NCBI RefSeq assembly: GCF_003058365.1
Contig: NZ_CP028858.1
Coordinates: forward strand, 2,096,836 to 2,160,835
Length of the DNA stretch: 64,000 nt
Reading direction: 5' to 3'
DNA from: Halococcoides cellulosivorans
Lineage (GTDB): Archaea; Halobacteriota; Halobacteria; Halobacteriales; Haloarculaceae
Part shown: piece by piece, positions 2,401 through 8,736 of the stretch
Position numbering within the stretch: position 1 is the stretch's first letter
Layout: each line of letters begins with the position of its first letter
The notes under the pieces: generated by a model
Told to the model about the DNA's origin: nothing
What the model saw: only the letters and a program-made list of their open reading frames with translations
Databases searched by the model: none
Position numbers and translations under genes: made by a program

Positions 2401-2703
2401 ATGTCGAGTGAGGACGCCGACGCTGACGACGCCGAGGCCCACGTGCGTGGCGTCTCGGTCACCACCGTCGCGACGTTGAGTGGGCTCGCGGGCGGTATCG
2501 TCGCCGATCTCGTCGCCACCGGGGCCAAAGATCCGACGGGCGTCGCGACGCTGTTCGCCGCCATTCTCGTGCAGGTCCCGATCCTGCGGGTGATGGGCTA
2601 TCAGATCGAGACGTTCGACACGAAAGACTACCTCTACATCGGATTTATGACGTTCGCGCTCTGGTTTCTCTCCTGGAGCATCCTGCTCACCGCGAGTCTG
2701 TAA
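2401..2703 (+). CDS. EMC6-like small membrane protein
   Basis: A 100-residue integral membrane protein. After a short acidic N-terminus it has three hydrophobic segments, roughly residues 21-41 (VTTVATLSGLAGGIVADLVA), 47-65 (TGVATLFAAILVQVPILRVM) and 78-99 (YIGFMTFALWFLSWSILLTA). The pattern and the position just ahead of rli1 match the haloarchaeal family annotated as EMC6-like, named for resemblance to a subunit of the eukaryotic ER membrane protein complex that inserts membrane proteins. A role in membrane-protein biogenesis is plausible but inferred. The stop codon is two bases before the rli1 ATG, so the two are probably co-transcribed, which would join a possible insertase-like factor with a ribosome recycling factor. 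Confidence 0.75.
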   Translation: MSSEDADADDAEAHVRGVSVTTVATLSGLAGGIVADLVATGAKDPTGVATLFAAILVQVPILRVMGYQIETFDTKDYLYIGFMTFALWFLSWSILLTASL

Positions 2704-2705
2704 CC

Positions 2706-4550
2706 ATGGCCGACGACAGCATCGCCGTCGTGGATCTGGATCGCTGCCAGCCCGATCGGTGTAACTACGAGTGTGTCAAAGACTGCCCGCCGAATCGCAC
2801 GGGCAAAGAGTGTATCGTCCGTCGCGAAGAGGCCTACGCCGACCGGTCGGATCGCGAAGAGGGCGATTACGCGGGCGATCCCGACCAGGTGTGGATCTCC
2901 GAGGAGATCTGTCTGGGCGAGACCTGTGGGATCTGCGTCGATCGCTGTCCGTTCGACGCGATTCAGATCGTCAACCTCCCCCAGGAACTCGACGAAGCGC
3001 CGATTCACCGCTACGGCGAGAACTCCTTTGCGCTGTATGGCCTGCCCGCCCCGCGCGATGGCCAGGTGACGGGCATCCTCGGCCCGAACGGCATCGGGAA
3101 AACGACCGCGGTGCGGATCCTCGCCGACGAACTCCAGCCGAACCTCGGCCAGATCGGTGATCCGCCCGCGTGGGACGCCATCCTCGACGAGCACCGCGGG
3201 ACGGCGCTTCAGCCGTACCTCGAAGCGATCGACGACGAGGATGTCTCGGTCGCGCGCAAGCCACAGTACGTCGACAAACTGCCCGATCGCTACGGCGGGC
3301 GCACACGTGACCTCCTCGAACGCGCGGACGAGCGCGGCGTCGTCGACGAACTCGCGAGGCGTGTCGGGATCGCACCCGTGCTCGATCAGGACCTCGACAC
3401 CCTCTCGGGCGGGGAACTCCAGCGTGTCGCACTGATCGCCACGCTCGCCCGCGACGCCGACTTCTACTTTCTGGACGAGATCACGCCGTATCTCGACATC
3501 GGCCAGCGGATGACCGCCGCGCGACTCGTCCGGGAACTCGCGGAGTCGGGCGATCGGTCGATGCTCGTCGTCGAGCACGACCTCGCCATCCTGGATCTGC
3601 TCGCCGACGGGATCCATCTGGCCTACGGGCAGCCGGGCGTGTTCGGTGTGATCACGCCGCCGAAATCGACCAAACAGGGGATCAACGAGTACCTCGCGGG
3701 CTATCTCGAATCGGAGAACGTCCGCGTGCGGGACTCCGAGATCACCTTCGAGACCCACGCGCCCCGGACGCTCACGGGCGGCAAGCCCGTCGTCGAGTAC
3801 CCCGCCCTGGAGAAATCCTACGGCGAAGGCGAGTTCGGCCTCTCGGTGGAAGCCGGAACGATCCACGAGGGCGAAGTGCTGGGCGTCGTCGGGCCGAACG
3901 GCATCGGGAAATCCACGTTCGCGCAGTTGCTCGCGGGCCGACTCGCGCCCGATGCGGGGAGCCTCGACGCCAGCCTCGACATTAGCTACAAGCCCCAGTA
4001 CGTCGAGATCGACCGCCAGATGCGCGTCGAGACGTTCCTCCGGACGATCACCGACGACGTCGGGAGTTCCTACTGGACGACCGAAATCGCCCAGCCGCTC
4101 CAGCTCGATCCCATCATGGATCAGCAGCTCCCCGATCTGTCGGGGGGCGAGCGCCAGCGCGTCGCGATCGCGGCGTGTCTCTCCGACGACGCCGATCTGT
4201 ACCTGCTCGACGAACCCTCCGCGCACCTCGACGTCGAACAGCGGGTGCGGACGACGACGGCGATCCGCCGGTACGCCGAGAACCACGACGCGACCGCGCT
4301 CGTCATCGACCACGACATCTACATGGTCGATCTGTTGAGCGATCGCCTGCTCGTCTTCGACGGCGAACCCGCCGAGCACGGCCACGCCAGCCAGCCCCAG
4401 CCGATGCGCGAGGGGATGAACGACTTTTTGGCGAACCTCGACGTGACCTTCCGGCGGGACGAACGCGTCGGTCGCCCACGGATCAACAAGCCCGGTAGTC
4501 AACTCGACCGCGAGCAAAAACAGTCCGGCGAGTATTATTACAGCGAGTAA
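2706..4550 (+). CDS. rli1: Ribosome recycling ATPase ABCE1/Rli1
   Basis: This 614-residue soluble protein splits 70S ribosomes into subunits after termination, together with aRF1/aPelota. The N-terminus carries two [4Fe-4S] ferredoxin motifs: the first in 'RCQPDRCNYECVKDCP' (about residues 13-28) and the second in 'CLGETCGICVDRCP' (about 65-79). Two ABC ATPase domains follow. Each has a Walker A GPNGIGKT/S (about residues 125-133 and 395-403), an LSGGE signature and a Walker B 'YFLDE' or 'YLLDE'. The hinge and the C-terminal 'GPNGIGKSTF' half are complete. No transmembrane segment is present, as expected for the soluble ABCE class. The length is normal for archaea. It follows the EMC6-like gene by two bases. 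Confidence 0.97.
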   Translation: MADDSIAVVDLDRCQPDRCNYECVKDCPPNRTGKECIVRREEAYADRSDREEGDYAGDPDQVWISEEICLGETCGICVDRCPFDAIQIVNLPQELDEAPIHRYGENSFALYGLPAPRDGQVTGILGPNGIGKTTAVRILADELQPNLGQIGDPPAWDAILDEHRGTALQPYLEAIDDEDVSVARKPQYVDKLPDRYGGRTRDLLERADERGVVDELARRVGIAPVLDQDLDTLSGGELQRVALIATLARDADFYFLDEITPYLDIGQRMTAARLVRELAESGDRSMLVVEHDLAILDLLADGIHLAYGQPGVFGVITPPKSTKQGINEYLAGYLESENVRVRDSEITFETHAPRTLTGGKPVVEYPALEKSYGEGEFGLSVEAGTIHEGEVLGVVGPNGIGKSTFAQLLAGRLAPDAGSLDASLDISYKPQYVEIDRQMRVETFLRTITDDVGSSYWTTEIAQPLQLDPIMDQQLPDLSGGERQRVAIAACLSDDADLYLLDEPSAHLDVEQRVRTTTAIRRYAENHDATALVIDHDIYMVDLLSDRLLVFDGEPAEHGHASQPQPMREGMNDFLANLDVTFRRDERVGRPRINKPGSQLDREQKQSGEYYYSE

Positions 4551-4576
4551 GACATCGCCTCGCGCTATTTACCGGT

Positions 4577-4948
4577 TCACTTCTCGACGACGTCCCAGAT
4601 CAGCACCGTCAAGAAGATACAAACGACGCCTCCGAAAACCAGCCAGAAGATCCAATTGCTCGGATCAACAGCTATGTGAACTATAGCCACACCGATTCCG
4701 GGGAATAAATAAGCCAGCAGCGTTCGGCGGTGGGTTTGGGATCGATTTCCGGAGGAAACCCAGTGGAGTCGTTGGGCCAAGACAGCGCTAATCGCTGCGA
4801 TAGAAAACCCAATCGCAACGCTCAACGGGAGGATGAGTTCCCGAAGTGGTTGTCCGGCGAAGAGTCCACTGGCAACGCCGACCGCGCTCGGGAACGCTAC
4901 CAGTAGTGCGAACACCACGGACAATATCGTAGCACCATCACGATTCAT
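4577..4948 (-). CDS. Hypothetical four-helix membrane protein
   Basis: A 123-residue protein I do not recognise. Four hydrophobic stretches can be seen: about residues 7-29 (ILSVVFALLVAFPSAVGVAS), 36-58 (ELILPLSVAIGFSIAAISAV), 78-96 (LLAYLFPGIGVAIVHIAV) and 99-120 (WIFWLVFGGVVCIFLTVLIW). A charged loop with 'SSGNRSQTHRR' separates helices 2 and 3. Base composition is visibly more AT-rich than in rli1 next door, and the gene marks the left edge of an accessory-looking stretch that runs to about 7470. It converges on rli1. It could be cargo of a past insertion; no partner gene suggests a job. Confidence 0.55.
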   Translation of the reverse strand: MNRDGATILSVVFALLVAFPSAVGVASGLFAGQPLRELILPLSVAIGFSIAAISAVLAQRLHWVSSGNRSQTHRRTLLAYLFPGIGVAIVHIAVDPSNWIFWLVFGGVVCIFLTVLIWDVVEK

Positions 4949-5056
4949 TATACAGGTGTTTTCTCCATATTGGATTCAATCTATTGAAGATGTATATCGG
5001 TGCCGTTCAGATTTCCCGCTGGTGTAGTCGAGAATAATCGCACCTGTTGTATCCTA
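4949..5056. other. AT-rich intergenic spacer
   Basis: Between the hypothetical membrane gene and the possible zinc-ribbon remnant. It is AT-rich (for example GAATCCAATATGG near 4970, a possible TATA region for the membrane gene). I see no RNA gene and no convincing open reading frame. Confidence 0.4.
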
Positions 5057-5212
5057 TTACGGTTCCTGAGGGTGGACAATCCCAGAGTACGTTGGTGCCT
5101 TCATGTCACAACTAGCACACACCGGGAGCGGTGGTCCATCAACGATCTGGATCTTCACCCCACAACCATCATTTGTATACCATATCCACGTCCAATATGC
5201 CGCTACTGTCAC
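5057..5212 (-). pseudogene. Possible zinc-ribbon gene remnant next to the TnpB element
   Basis: Immediately outside the right-end hairpin of the TnpB element, one minus-strand frame stays open for 51 codons from a possible GTG at 5212 to a TAA at 5057. Its product contains 'NDGCGVKIQIVDGPPLPVCA' followed by 'SCD', which looks like part of a zinc ribbon: a lone cysteine, a short beta hairpin and a CxxC knuckle. The N-terminal part (AAYWTWIWYTNDG) has no good start and only one half of a ribbon is visible. The simplest reading is the 3' end of a gene cut by insertion of the element, but a short functional gene or chance cannot be excluded. Confidence 0.3.
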
Positions 5213-5215
5213 CTT

Positions 5216-5235
5216 CTCCGCCCTGAAGGGCGGAG
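5216..5235 (-). repeat. Right-end subterminal hairpin
   Basis: A perfect 9-base-pair stem, CTCCGCCCT/AGGGCGGAG, with a two-base GA loop, 30 bases after the tnpB stop. It shares the GCCCT/AGGGC core with the left-end hairpin. Confidence 0.75.
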
Positions 5236-5330
5236 CTTGTCGGTGGACTCCCGTTCTGGCCGATTCTACTCGGCAGGCGAATACTCGCCGTTCACGTTCA
5301 ATGTCCCCGACTTCAGGGCGAGGTGACGTG
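5216..5330 (-). ncRNA. Predicted omega RNA (reRNA) at the tnpB 3' end
   Basis: In IS200/IS605 elements the guide RNA of TnpB is made from the 3' end of tnpB and the right end of the transposon, and its guide segment is the flanking DNA beyond the right end. Here that region comprises the last codons of tnpB, 30 bases of untranslated sequence and the right-end hairpin. The guide would be read from bases below about 5210. The boundaries given are approximate: no RNA evidence is available and the RNA start is not visible from sequence alone. Confidence 0.35.
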
Positions 5331-6477
5331 TCGCCCCTCCGTGCGGAGACTTTTGCCCCGCACGGAGCATCTTGAACCCGATATTCTTCGCCGCGTTGTA
5401 GTCTGCGTTGACCTCGTAGCCACACTTCTGACAGCAAAATTTCGCCTGTGACGGACGATTCTCCCGCAGCGTCGTCCCGCACTTCGAACAGCGCTGGCTG
5501 GTGTACGCTGGGTCGACCTGTGTCGTGTCGATGCCCTCCGCTTCAGCCTTGTACGCCGTGTAGTCGTAGAGCCGGCGGAACGCCCACGCGTGGAACTCCT
5601 TCACACCGGGCATCCGGTCGCGAATGTCCGTTAACTCCTCGAACGCTATCCGGTCGCACCCGTGCGCGACGGCTTCTTGGACGAGGGCTTTTGAGAGACG
5701 GTGTAGGTAATCTTCGACCCACCGCGTCTCTCGGTCGCCCATCCGTTCGATGGTTCGATGGGCTGATTCCGTGCCCGTCCGTTGTAGGTCGCCACGGACC
5801 CGTTCGTACTCCCGTCGACGATGGTTCAAGAAGTCGCCACTCCAGAACAGTCCCGTCGACGTGACGGCGATCTGTTCGATACCGAGGTCGACGCCGAGGA
5901 CTGTGCTGTGCTCGGCGTCGCCGTCGTCCGGTATCTCGAACTCGACATCGGTCTTTGTCCCGATGTGGAGATAAAACGTGTCCGTCGCGTCGCGGTACTG
6001 CAACGTGGCCCCGGTGATCTCGGAGTCGTCGGTGCGGAGGTATTTCGTCTGCGGATTGTCGCCCTCCGGTGGGAGGACGTATTCGGCTTCGATTCGTCCG
6101 TCCACCGTCGAGAGTGACACACGGTCGTCGTGGAACGTCGCGCTGCGCCTGTCGTAGCGAACCGATGGCGTCGTGAACTCGGGTCGGGACGCCATCTTGC
6201 CGTCCTTCCATCGGGCGACGACGCTTTTGATGGCTTCGGCGGCCCGGTTCCGTGCGGATTGGACGAGATTGGCTTGGAGCCGTGTCTGGTCGCGCACGTC
6301 GGCGTACGTCCGGTCGTGGAGTTCCGTCTTGGACGTGGGCTTGTACTCGTCCTGCCAGGCATCGCCGACGACGTAGTTGCACGCCCACAGATACTCGTCG
6401 ACGGTCTCGTGGAGGAGATCGGCGTCGCTGTCGTCGATATCGAGTTTGACGACGACCGTGCGACGCATCTCCGCCAT
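5266..6477 (-). CDS. tnpB: TnpB, RNA-guided nuclease of an IS1341-type element
   Basis: A 403-residue protein of the TnpB/Cas12 ancestor family, which cuts DNA under guidance of a transposon-encoded RNA and helps the element persist. The RuvC-like catalytic residues look intact: Asp in 'VLGVDLGIEQIAV' (about residue 197), Glu in 'IAFEELTDIR' (about 279) and Asp in 'NADYNAAKN' (about 357). A zinc-finger insert with CSKC (about 330) and CQKC (about 350) precedes the last motif. The N-terminal 'LDIDDSDADLLHETVDEY' is the OrfB helix-turn-helix-like region. Full length, so the protein is probably active. The ATG at 6477 is 26 bases after a TATA box (ATTATAAAT). Adenines and thymines are no more frequent than in host genes inside the coding region, suggesting long residence in haloarchaea. 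Confidence 0.93.
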   Translation of the reverse strand: MAEMRRTVVVKLDIDDSDADLLHETVDEYLWACNYVVGDAWQDEYKPTSKTELHDRTYADVRDQTRLQANLVQSARNRAAEAIKSVVARWKDGKMASRPEFTTPSVRYDRRSATFHDDRVSLSTVDGRIEAEYVLPPEGDNPQTKYLRTDDSEITGATLQYRDATDTFYLHIGTKTDVEFEIPDDGDAEHSTVLGVDLGIEQIAVTSTGLFWSGDFLNHRRREYERVRGDLQRTGTESAHRTIERMGDRETRWVEDYLHRLSKALVQEAVAHGCDRIAFEELTDIRDRMPGVKEFHAWAFRRLYDYTAYKAEAEGIDTTQVDPAYTSQRCSKCGTTLRENRPSQAKFCCQKCGYEVNADYNAAKNIGFKMLRAGQKSPHGGATRHLALKSGTLNVNGEYSPAE

Positions 6478-6498
6478 GAGTCATATGTAGTGCAGGAC

Positions 6499-6507
6499 AT
6501 TTATAAT
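6499..6507 (-). promoter_or_regulatory. TATA box of tnpB
   Basis: ATTATAAAT on the minus strand, centred 26 bases before the ATG at 6477; it is one of the strongest TATA matches in the window and implies a leaderless tnpB mRNA. Confidence 0.6.
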
Positions 6508-6576
6508 AGTAACGGTTCCGTTGGGGAGTCGGTCGGGTGTCGTCGGCGGTTGTGGAGTAGGGATGACGCGATTCCT

Positions 6577-6596
6577 CCCCGCCCTAAAGGGCGGGG
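6577..6596 (-). repeat. Left-end subterminal hairpin
   Basis: A perfect 9-base-pair stem, CCCCGCCCT/AGGGCGGGG, with a two-base AA loop, about 100 bases upstream of the tnpB start. It is the likely left-end recognition structure for TnpA. Confidence 0.75.
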
Positions 6597-6654
6597 TTTC
6601 CTCGCTGATTTAAGATGAAAGCGGCCCCACTCAGTGTAGCAGCAGCTTCTGAAC

Positions 6655-6825
6655 TTATATAATTCTCGCTGCTGCGAGCGTTTTTCCGATAGTTGCTACG
6701 CCAATACTTCCGAGCCATGCGCCAGCATTTACGTCAGAAATAGTATCGTCACTTATATACAAATACCCTACTGTATTGTCATCCTCATTTTCATCAGCCA
6801 CAAAGTCATCCCTATTGCAACTCAT
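6655..6825 (-). CDS. 56-residue peptide with acidic head and glycine-rich hydrophobic tail
   Basis: A short gene whose ATG overlaps the TGA stop of the Tat-exported protein gene (ATGA), so translation is probably coupled. Residues 1-33 are very acidic (MSCNRDDFVADENEDDNTVG, then YLYISDDTISDVN). Residues 34-56 are hydrophobic and small-residue rich, with the pattern 'AGAWLGSIGVATIGKTLAAA' then RII, which could form one membrane-spanning or amphipathic helix with a glycine zipper. I recognise no family. The layout, a charged leader-like half and a glycine-rich membrane-active half coupled to an exported protein, resembles antimicrobial peptide precursors, but there is no double-glycine cleavage site and no visible export or immunity gene. 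It lies in an AT-rich stretch beside a transposon, so horizontal acquisition is likely. Confidence 0.55.
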   Translation of the reverse strand: MSCNRDDFVADENEDDNTVGYLYISDDTISDVNAGAWLGSIGVATIGKTLAAARII

Positions 6826-7274
6826 TGTCCATTCCCCCCACGGTTGGAGTTGTTGCCCTGTCTAGCTTTTTCCAATATATCGTTATTTATTTCCAAAGAA
6901 GGGGGAGAATCGGTTGAAACGCTGGTAGTCGAAACCCTACCCCTTGGAACTAATCGTCCTTCTTCAACCTCATCCGCGATATTTCCACATAATTTTTCCA
7001 TCGTATTGAAGGGGATCTTCTGTCCCGGCCCATCATAGTCATCCCAGTGTCGATTATATTCCTCTTTTGTCATTGGTATAGATTTGGGATTTGACCTTAG
7101 CATCCAATGTGCCACTACATTAGCCTGAGATCCAGCGTGATCAGGCGCATTCGAATGTTCGGGCGGCCCGGCGTGTTCTGGCGGACCCTTCCGACGCCGT
7201 GCCGCCGCCACGGCCGGCGAGGTAATCGTTGCCGCTGCCACACCGATACCGGACAGGAGTTGTCTCCGGTCCAT
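6822..7274 (-). CDS. Unknown Tat-exported protein
   Basis: A 150-residue protein with an N-terminal twin-arginine signal: MDRRQLLSGIGVAAATITSP, then AVAAA, a probable cleavage region near residue 25. No lipobox cysteine follows, so the protein should be released or held by other means. The mature N-terminus has a short proline-histidine repeat (PPEHAGPPEHSNAPDHAG, about residues 31-48), then a basic and polar region with 'PMTKEEYNRHWDDYDGPGQK' and one cysteine in 'EKLCGNIADEVEEGRLVPRG'. The C-terminus is Asn/Gly-rich. I do not recognise the family. The stop overlaps the start of the 56-residue gene. The coding sequence is AT-rich compared with the neighbours, except for the signal peptide region. 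Confidence 0.65.
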   Translation of the reverse strand: MDRRQLLSGIGVAAATITSPAVAAARRRKGPPEHAGPPEHSNAPDHAGSQANVVAHWMLRSNPKSIPMTKEEYNRHWDDYDGPGQKIPFNTMEKLCGNIADEVEEGRLVPRGRVSTTSVSTDSPPSLEINNDILEKARQGNNSNRGGNGQ

Positions 7275-7470
7275 GACCGGGCCGACATACCGCTGATTAA
7301 AAAATACCGATTTAATTTATGACTAACTATAATTATTCAACTGGTTTTTTCCGTTACTGCTTAAGTTCGTTCAAACTTCAGTGGTTGAAAATTATCCCCC
7401 CCCCTCCCCTTCGAAATACCCAAAACTCTGTATCAGATACTCTACATTCCCACACCGCACCAGCGCCCCC
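7275..7470. other. AT-rich intergenic region between the Tat protein and MFS genes
   Basis: Contains AT-rich runs near 7297-7345 (for example minus-strand ATAAATTAAATC at about 7307-7319, a likely TATA region for the Tat-protein gene) and a CCCCCCCC-rich run at 7397-7412. It is the probable right boundary of the accessory stretch. No gene is seen. Confidence 0.4.
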
Positions 7471-8736
7471 TCACACCGCCCGCCAGCGATCGATCCCCAA
7501 CACGCCTGCGCCGAGCACCGCGAGTCCCGCGGCCCCGGCGAACACCGCGCGAAGCCCGAACGGACCGACCAGCAGGCCGAACGCGACCGGCGAGAGGAAC
7601 TGGCCCGCGTAGCCCGCCGAGGCGAGATACGAACTCAACTGGCCCTGCCGATCGGCGGGCGCGAGCGCCTCGATCCAACCGAACGCGGCGGGAAAGACCA
7701 GGCCCTGGCCAGCCCCGAATCCGACGACCGGCGCGATCGCCGCGATCGGCCCGCTCACCTGCGTCGCGACGCCGAAGGCCACGATCCAGGTCGCGAGTGC
7801 GACACCGACGAGCGTCCGTCGACTCGTTCGGACGAGCAGGCGATCGTAACTCGCGGCGGCGATCCCACCCGCCAGCCCCATCGCCGCGAGATAGAGGCTC
7901 ACCCGAAACGACGACCGGATCCCGAGGCCATCGAGCAGTTGCGGATAGAACACGACGATCGCGTACAGGAGCGCGTTCGTCCCAAAATAGAGGGCGTAGA
8001 CGCCGAGCAGCGCCGGCCGGTCGACGATCGGGGCCAGGGCGGCCCGAACGGTCGCGAGGACGCCCCGAAGCCCGGCGGACAGCGTGCCGATCGGACGGGC
8101 GAATCGGGCGCGCATCGCCCCCGCGACCCGGGCCGATCGAGCGCGACCGTGCCACCGGCGTGGGTCGAGCGGTCCCGTCGATCCCCCGCGGGTCTCGGGA
8201 ATCGTCAGCGCGGCCAGCGCCCCGAGCGGGAGCGCGATCAGGTAGACGCCGAACGGGGCCTGCCAGGAGACCGTCCCGAGCGCACCGCCGACGAGCGGCC
8301 ACGCGACCGCGCCGACGCTGTTCGCACTCGATCGCAGGCCGAGCGCGCGCTCCATGCCCTGGCCGTCGTACAGCTCGTAGATCGTGACCGTCAGGCCCGT
8401 ATAGACCAGCGCGACGCCGACGCCGAGTACCGCCCGGGTGGCGAGCAGTGGGCCGAAAGCATCGATCACCAGGCCCGCGCCCCCGCCGAGGCCGTACAGC
8501 ACGAGCCCCGCGATCAGCGGGCGTCGCGGCCCGATCCGATCGACGAGCGCGCCCGCGAGCGGGCTGACGAGGACGATCAACGCGCCGTGAGTCGTGACGA
8601 TGAGCCCTGCGCGAGACTCACCGACGCCCAGTCCCGACTGAATCGCGGGCACGACCGGGCCCAAAATCGCGCCGGCCATCACCGTCAGCGTCGCCGTGCC
8701 GAGGATGACGACGAGGGGGCCGCGACGAGTCGCCAT
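7471..8736 (-). CDS. Major facilitator superfamily transporter
   Basis: A 421-residue membrane protein with about twelve hydrophobic segments. The N-terminal half shows 'ILGPVVPAIQSGLG' after helix 1, then 'LAGALVDRIGPRRPLIAGLV', the MFS motif A between helices 2 and 3 (G-x-L-x-D-R-x-G-R-R-type). The second half repeats a weaker form near 'YDRLLVRTSRRTLVGVALA'. A long basic central loop (RRWHGRARSARVAGAMRARF) separates the halves. The frame stays open far upstream of 8736, but that part lies antisense to lctP and has no membrane segments, so I take the ATG at 8736 (MATRRGPLVVILGTATL). Substrate unknown: drug or small-molecule efflux is the usual default for this pattern. The gene is divergent from the small membrane gene at 8819. 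Confidence 0.85.
   Translation of the reverse strand: MATRRGPLVVILGTATLTVMAGAILGPVVPAIQSGLGVGESRAGLIVTTHGALIVLVSPLAGALVDRIGPRRPLIAGLVLYGLGGGAGLVIDAFGPLLATRAVLGVGVALVYTGLTVTIYELYDGQGMERALGLRSSANSVGAVAWPLVGGALGTVSWQAPFGVYLIALPLGALAALTIPETRGGSTGPLDPRRWHGRARSARVAGAMRARFARPIGTLSAGLRGVLATVRAALAPIVDRPALLGVYALYFGTNALLYAIVVFYPQLLDGLGIRSSFRVSLYLAAMGLAGGIAAASYDRLLVRTSRRTLVGVALATWIVAFGVATQVSGPIAAIAPVVGFGAGQGLVFPAAFGWIEALAPADRQGQLSSYLASAGYAGQFLSPVAFGLLVGPFGLRAVFAGAAGLAVLGAGVLGIDRWRAV

Follow-up and report, generated by a model that had tools for sequence, protein, structure and literature searches.

A putative split halocin-like precursor gene interrupted by a TnpB element in Halococcoides cellulosivorans

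Background

To our knowledge, genes have been identified for only a small number of antimicrobial proteins from archaea. One study (PMC12893001) describes HalH4 and HalC8 as secreted haloarchaeal precursors whose active part is a C-terminal fragment, to which the halocin H4 precursor is processed by HlyR4, and HFX_0892 as a protein of which the active fragment is N-terminal. Ali24, a member of the geobacillin-26 family, is characterised in PMC13176240 as a secreted protein of ~240 aa for which a membrane helix at the C-terminus is predicted, along with beta elements. As regards export, two further sources (PMC4273604, PMC10924467) report that the Tat pathway carries heteromers with a signal-less member.

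Here we examine a locus in Halococcoides cellulosivorans, within a stretch of 64,000 nucleotides of contig NZ_CP028858.1 that was analysed as a whole (hereafter, the window). An initial annotation had described a Tat-exported protein coupled by an ATGA overlap to a 56-residue peptide. We find that the ATGA-coupled pair is real, and conserved beyond what the window sequence alone could reveal, and that a halocin-like function is the best available, albeit unproven, reading of it.

Reading frames and context of the locus

The features of the locus, by window position, are as follows:

6822-7274, minus strand: ORF1, 150 aa, starting MDRRQLLSGIG; putatively exported N-terminal half with a twin-arginine-like start
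6655-6825, minus strand: ORF2, 56 aa, starting MSCNRDD, with its stop at 6655; first half of a C-terminal domain
6822-6825, minus strand: ATGA stop-start overlap of ORF1 and ORF2, at the same place as the gene split in five other genomes
5208-6607, minus strand: TnpB element lying within the C-terminal domain; approximate ends, from copies elsewhere and alignments to two related loci (L077, L078)
5266-6477, minus strand: TnpB gene, 403 aa; PF07282, and NF040570 (guided_TnpB) at 189 bits, above the cut-off of 100 for this RNA-guided TnpB model
5057-5207, minus strand: remaining part of the interrupted C-terminal domain, including WTWIWYTNDGCGVKIQ and a C-terminal tail; from profile A2 (below) and frame reading
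4577-4948, minus strand: candidate immunity ORF, 123 aa, four predicted spans, 108 nt past the tail; assigned by position

Both minus-strand frames and their overlap are as initially annotated, as is the AT-rich setting: GC content, taken in 500-base windows, is 0.47-0.52, compared with about 0.65-0.70 further out. A frame of 150 aa is rare by chance (3 of 2000 mononucleotide shuffles). Neither ORF1 nor ORF2 matched a Pfam or NCBIfam model above cut-off, and a scan of 4500-7600 yielded no Rfam match. The twin-arginine signal that had been attributed to ORF1 is visible as an RRQLLSG motif, yet it scored 12 bits against Pfam TAT_signal (PF10518), for which the cut-off is 22.7. A profile built from the N-terminal parts of seven relatives, taken from DNA, matched residues 2-49 of ORF1 (the signal region) at 12.1 bits, and the score fell to -1.4 bits, inside the shuffle range, once the first 28 residues were removed. 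The likeness of ORF1 to other N-terminal parts is confined to the signal, its body showing no similarity to them (the N-terminal part in the family carries an FN.AIE.G-type domain), and because the profile match stops at the signal region, we assign ORF1 by position and signal and not by similarity of its body. As a query by itself, ORF1 brought up no convincing relative: matches at E <= 0.01 occurred in 11 of 146 genomes, its own included, with the others at 2.6e-4 or worse; the two of these weak matches that were inspected (L002 and L004) were judged to be unrelated GC-rich frames. Pattern searches brought no relatives among 309 matches of ORF1 in genome contigs, nor among 18 in viral contigs. 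A scan for bacterial-type promoters, in this archaeal host, found none, against 1.5 expected. Upstream of the ORF2 start lies a GGGGGG run, a weaker candidate ribosome site than the GGAGG of relatives described below.

A C-terminal domain interrupted by a TnpB element

ORF2 is homologous to proteins that extend ~50 residues further, the whole C-terminal domain being ~105 residues long. Profile A2, made from ten such C-terminal domains with the window excluded, matches 6655-6825 with its positions 1-55 (E 6.7e-6) and 5135-5221 with its positions 66-94 (E 8.0e-6), the latter match extending 14 bases inside the end of the element, as is normal for alignments. Since the profile matches both halves, one on either side of the TnpB element, the ORF2 gene is interrupted by that element; the transposon that had been annotated as a neighbour does adjoin ORF2 but, more exactly, lies inside its gene. 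Moreover, the ORF2 frame has further stops between that at 6655 and the element, so the gene carries at least one lesion besides the insertion. On the strength of the same profile we assign the locus to a family of haloarchaeal C...NDGCGV...SQ proteins, as yet unnamed, that appear to be exported precursors.

The borders of the element are consistent across comparisons. For copies in other genomes, seven rows start at base 94 of the query, which is window position 6607, and 14 rows end at 1492-1493 (window 5208-5209). Most of the other ends fall at 1458-1474, with two at 1500-1501. The end alignments to L077 and L078 give the same borders, 6607 and 5208. Related copies occur in 36 of 57 family genomes, this one included. 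In its TnpB and hairpin-bearing ends the element resembles the solo TnpB elements of the IS200/IS605 group; it is putatively solo here, and ordinary except for its landing place. A second, diverged TnpB copy lies elsewhere in the same genome (G000:C1:1808652-1809873), with 64% identity across most of the gene.

Fused and split forms of the family

Used as a query, ORF2 matched four of 146 same-family genomes at E <= 0.05: its own locus, the interior of single 260-codon frames in G058 (Halomicrobium katesii; E 7.2e-4) and G059 (E 1.2e-4), and a 395-codon frame in G066 (0.047), which we take to be unrelated. The G058 and G059 proteins start with a twin-arginine motif and include GCN[RK]DD...SDSTIDDLN...NNGCGV. 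With the G059 protein as query, 19 of 391 Halobacteria genomes matched at E <= 0.01, some of them weakly; profile A2 matched 27 of the 391 at that threshold (24 at E <= 1e-5), and 17 of 125 genomes from the family to which G216 belongs (E <= 1e-5), several genomes being common to the 391- and 125-genome searches. Among the relatives read, at some loci only in part, most consist of one ORF encoding a signal, a small domain, a linker and then C...NDGCGV...SQ. Such single-ORF members include G058, G059, G154, G459, ten more distant proteins and a paralogue in the genome studied here (G000:C1:1133553-1134185; L026, and L047 1030-1830), which is fused and apparently intact; 38 nt beyond it lies a 62-aa ORF for which two spans are predicted.

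Five other members are divided into two ORFs, namely those of G216, G298, G232 (Natrinema mahii H13, with the intact pair on contig JHUT02000003.1), G454 (Halostagnicola sp. A56) and G194. They represent three lineages, with G216 and G454 in one genus (their ORF2 proteins are 97% identical), G232 and G298 in another, with near-identical ORF2, and G194 in a third. The split point is common to all five, the ORF2 Met standing one or two codons ahead of a conserved Cys. At the four junctions read as DNA (G216, G232, G298 and G194) a GGAGG lies shortly upstream and the frames overlap by TAATG; that of G454 is known from translations. The window ORF2, which shares 38-40% identity with relatives, begins with MSCNRDD at the same split point, with ATGA as the overlap. 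Homologues with conserved coupling, which the initial annotation had suggested seeking, exist in other haloarchaea. In a tree of the domain the split members do not form a supported clade, and the tree does not settle whether splitting occurred once or repeatedly. Individual split loci bear damage of their own: G194 ORF2 carries an in-frame TGA, and in G454 (L102, about 2550-3000) the ORF1 frame lacks the signal part, being continuous upstream with what, by its motifs, looks like Rieske-protein sequence, beside an intact ORF2.

Plasmid searches gave no match for three family proteins and one Natrinema versiforme record for a fourth. The family is not described among the matches listed in our search of open-licence papers, in which, being nameless, it could not be sought by name.

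Constraint, conserved residues and predicted structure

The window frame has no near relative, and selection was gauged on pairs of relatives' ORF2. Between G216 and G454 there are 7 synonymous and 3 non-synonymous changes (pS 0.088, pN 0.012), between G216 and G232 pS is 0.754 and pN 0.333, and G232 and G298 differ by one change, which is synonymous. Coding constraint, the absence of which would have refuted the initial annotation, is present in these relatives as purifying selection on ORF2.

Across an alignment of 21 domain sequences, some of them near-duplicates, only two Gly and a C-terminal Gln are invariant, and the Cys of GCG occurs in at least 90% of rows. One G232 locus (L101 1462-2160) has lost both conserved cysteines, with His in place of the GCG Cys and Ser-His at the first; this joint loss, a single case, is consistent with a disulfide, which the two cysteines probably form. 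AlphaFold2 predicts G216 ORF2 as two strands, four helices and two strands (pLDDT 87.6, pTM 0.81). For the fused G154 protein the mean pLDDT is 66, the small N-terminal and the C-terminal domains being confidently predicted and the signal and linker not. Comparisons with known structures brought no fold to the fore: none of 78 Foldseek matches in the PDB reached E <= 0.001, the best Z over 365 chains in VIA-align was 3.2, with no fold standing out, and the best E in a PDB sequence search was 0.27. The members scanned matched no Pfam or NCBIfam family above cut-off (L045, for example, scored 21 bits against a FosX-type model with a cut-off of 270), and the best E in PHROGs was 0.011. The PADLOC model mad3 was matched by two of the 21 members of alignment A5 (best E 0.0004).

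Membrane proteins encoded downstream

At 16 of 33 family loci, an ORF on the same strand and with two or more predicted spans starts within 350 nt past the gene, compared with two of 29 control frames of at least 200 aa, which were the longest non-overlapping frames of the window and not annotated genes. The 33 loci exclude that of the window, duplicates (L102-L105) and weak or fragmentary loci (L066-L069), count near-identical pairs separately, and include three (L028, L057, L065) that end at contig ends, where the computed gene ends are unchecked. The other 17 have no multi-span ORF within 350 nt; in G399, G149 and G407 one lies just past this limit, at about 400 nt. Six of the 16 downstream ORFs are 124-144 aa long with four spans, and five of these were aligned. 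Among split loci, those of N. mahii and G298 (both intact) and of G454 have no multi-span ORF within 350 nt. At the loci of four more distant members (L056, L058, L059, L065) the downstream protein is not a small four-span one but a six-span protein of ~300 aa, similar among them.

In the window, the four-span ORF at 4577-4948 is no closer to the five aligned proteins of relatives than shuffles are (5 of 500 scored higher), and a frame as long arises in 36 of 2000 shuffles. Its matches extend to 18 of 391 genomes including its own, the others at 2.2e-4 or worse, and its candidacy as an immunity gene is a positional guess.

Elsewhere, an undamaged four-span ORF accompanies a damaged C-terminal domain gene at three loci chosen by eye: G068 (a frame change), G194 (its TGA) and N. 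mahii H13 contig JHUT02000010.1 (L105 2400-3614), at which only the C-terminal part of the gene precedes the intact four-span ORF, and a neighbouring gene looks, by its motifs, like trpG. The G454 locus, in which it is ORF1 that is damaged, has no four-span ORF downstream.

Proposed mechanism and alternatives

We give slightly better than even credence to the locus being a split halocin-like precursor, in which a signal-bearing half would take a signal-less half through Tat, and which has been inactivated here. ORF1 bears the twin-arginine-like signal, and the translationally coupled ORF2 would encode the signal-less C-terminal domain. Because many relatives have both parts in one polypeptide, the split halves most likely bind each other, and they would then leave the cell folded together through Tat, with ORF1 as escort. 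Outside the cell, the C-terminal domain may act on membranes of related haloarchaea, and the small multi-span membrane protein encoded just downstream may protect the producer. In this genome, where the TnpB element interrupts the ORF2 gene, production of the full domain is no longer expected. The homology of ORF2, the common split point and the interruption are shown by the analysis; binding, co-export, toxicity, immunity and the disulfide are inferred. A broader version we regard as less likely than not: that in a class of split halocins the toxin half is stop-start coupled and exported folded through Tat on its signal-bearing partner, that the gene switches between fused and split states at a single fixed point, and that mobile elements or mutations frequently disrupt the toxin half but spare the membrane immunity gene downstream.

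Of the functions first suggested, a secreted toxin with a partner, or a halocin-like system, best fits a family in which the precursor is apparently exported, the C-terminal domain is hydrophobic and a multi-span ORF often follows, but not in the form of a self-contained 56-residue membrane-active peptide. It is most improbable that the 56-residue frame works as such a peptide, despite its start codon and intact frame: a stop cuts it off halfway through the domain and the TnpB element follows, beyond which the missing part continues at 5057-5207; split relatives have an ORF2 of 105-112 aa; and a hydropathy window predicts no membrane span within the 56 residues. We also think it unlikely that the ATGA is a frameshift scar in an ancestral single ORF of the kind seen in H. 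katesii, of the same family, with the whole gene decaying. Such a scar would accord with the ORF2 frame reaching back 12 codons beyond its ATG without a stop, with the fused form being present in the same family, with ORF2 being broken already, and with the clustering of P2 with the fused G059 and H. katesii proteins in a poorly supported tree (41 and 62). However, a Met two residues ahead of the conserved Cys and an ORF1 stop at that place, as in five other genomes, make a double coincidence that we judge, by opinion and not by computed probability, to be unlikely for a random frameshift. Because those five genomes split the gene at the same point, our first idea, that the ATGA was purely a frameshift scar, was revised, and the window overlap is probably an inherited split.

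Another, somewhat unlikely, alternative is that the family is exported without being antimicrobial, for example as a surface or sensing protein partnered with the downstream membrane protein. No PDB fold was matched by Foldseek at E <= 0.001 and no Pfam or NCBIfam family above cut-off by the members scanned, which would suit such a role; moreover, no named bacteriocin family was matched above cut-off by these members, and no member is known to kill. However, bacteriocin loci are usually patchy in distribution and repeatedly broken, with a C-terminal domain that is hydrophobic and, often, a multi-span ORF downstream, and the combination of these traits here would argue for the halocin-like reading.

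The analysis defines by sequence a family of apparently exported proteins, present in 24-27 of the 391 haloarchaeal genomes searched, that occurs naturally both split and fused and whose scanned members match no Pfam or NCBIfam model above cut-off. With the split version, it becomes testable whether a toxin is co-exported via Tat by what was once its own N-terminal half. Likewise, the recurrence of damaged toxin parts next to intact membrane ORFs would allow the loss of production with retained immunity to be tested in archaea.

Comparison with known systems

Geobacillin-26, described in PMC13176240 as secreted, with a membrane helix predicted at the C-terminus and beta elements, is similar in these respects but differs in having a Sec and not a Tat signal. 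The best family member scored 13.3 bits against its model (NF035925, cut-off 40 bits), none of 50 genomes held a match above cut-off, and hhalign against Ali24 gave probabilities of 0.6 and 1.1%. Matches at 13.3 and 11 bits, from two of the ten members, fall on one common stretch of this profile, to which numerous other sites in the 50 genomes also align.

Halocin C8 precursors (TIGR04449) are also haloarchaeal and have a C-terminal peptide domain, in single frames of 194-408 codons, whereas the family described here has two conserved cysteines and can be split into two ORFs; no TIGR04449 match (cut-off 24 bits) was found in ORF1, ORF2, G000 or 21 members. With halocin H4, as described in PMC12893001, the shared features are a secreted haloarchaeal precursor and, putatively, an active C-terminal fragment. 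In Tat hitchhiker heteromers such as PaoABC (PMC4273604), a signal-less subunit leaves with its signal-bearing partner, as we propose for ORF2 and ORF1; they differ in that co-export in the present family is suggested only by the fission and fusion of its two parts. The split form would combine a halocin precursor active through its C-terminus with the export of a heteromer through Tat.
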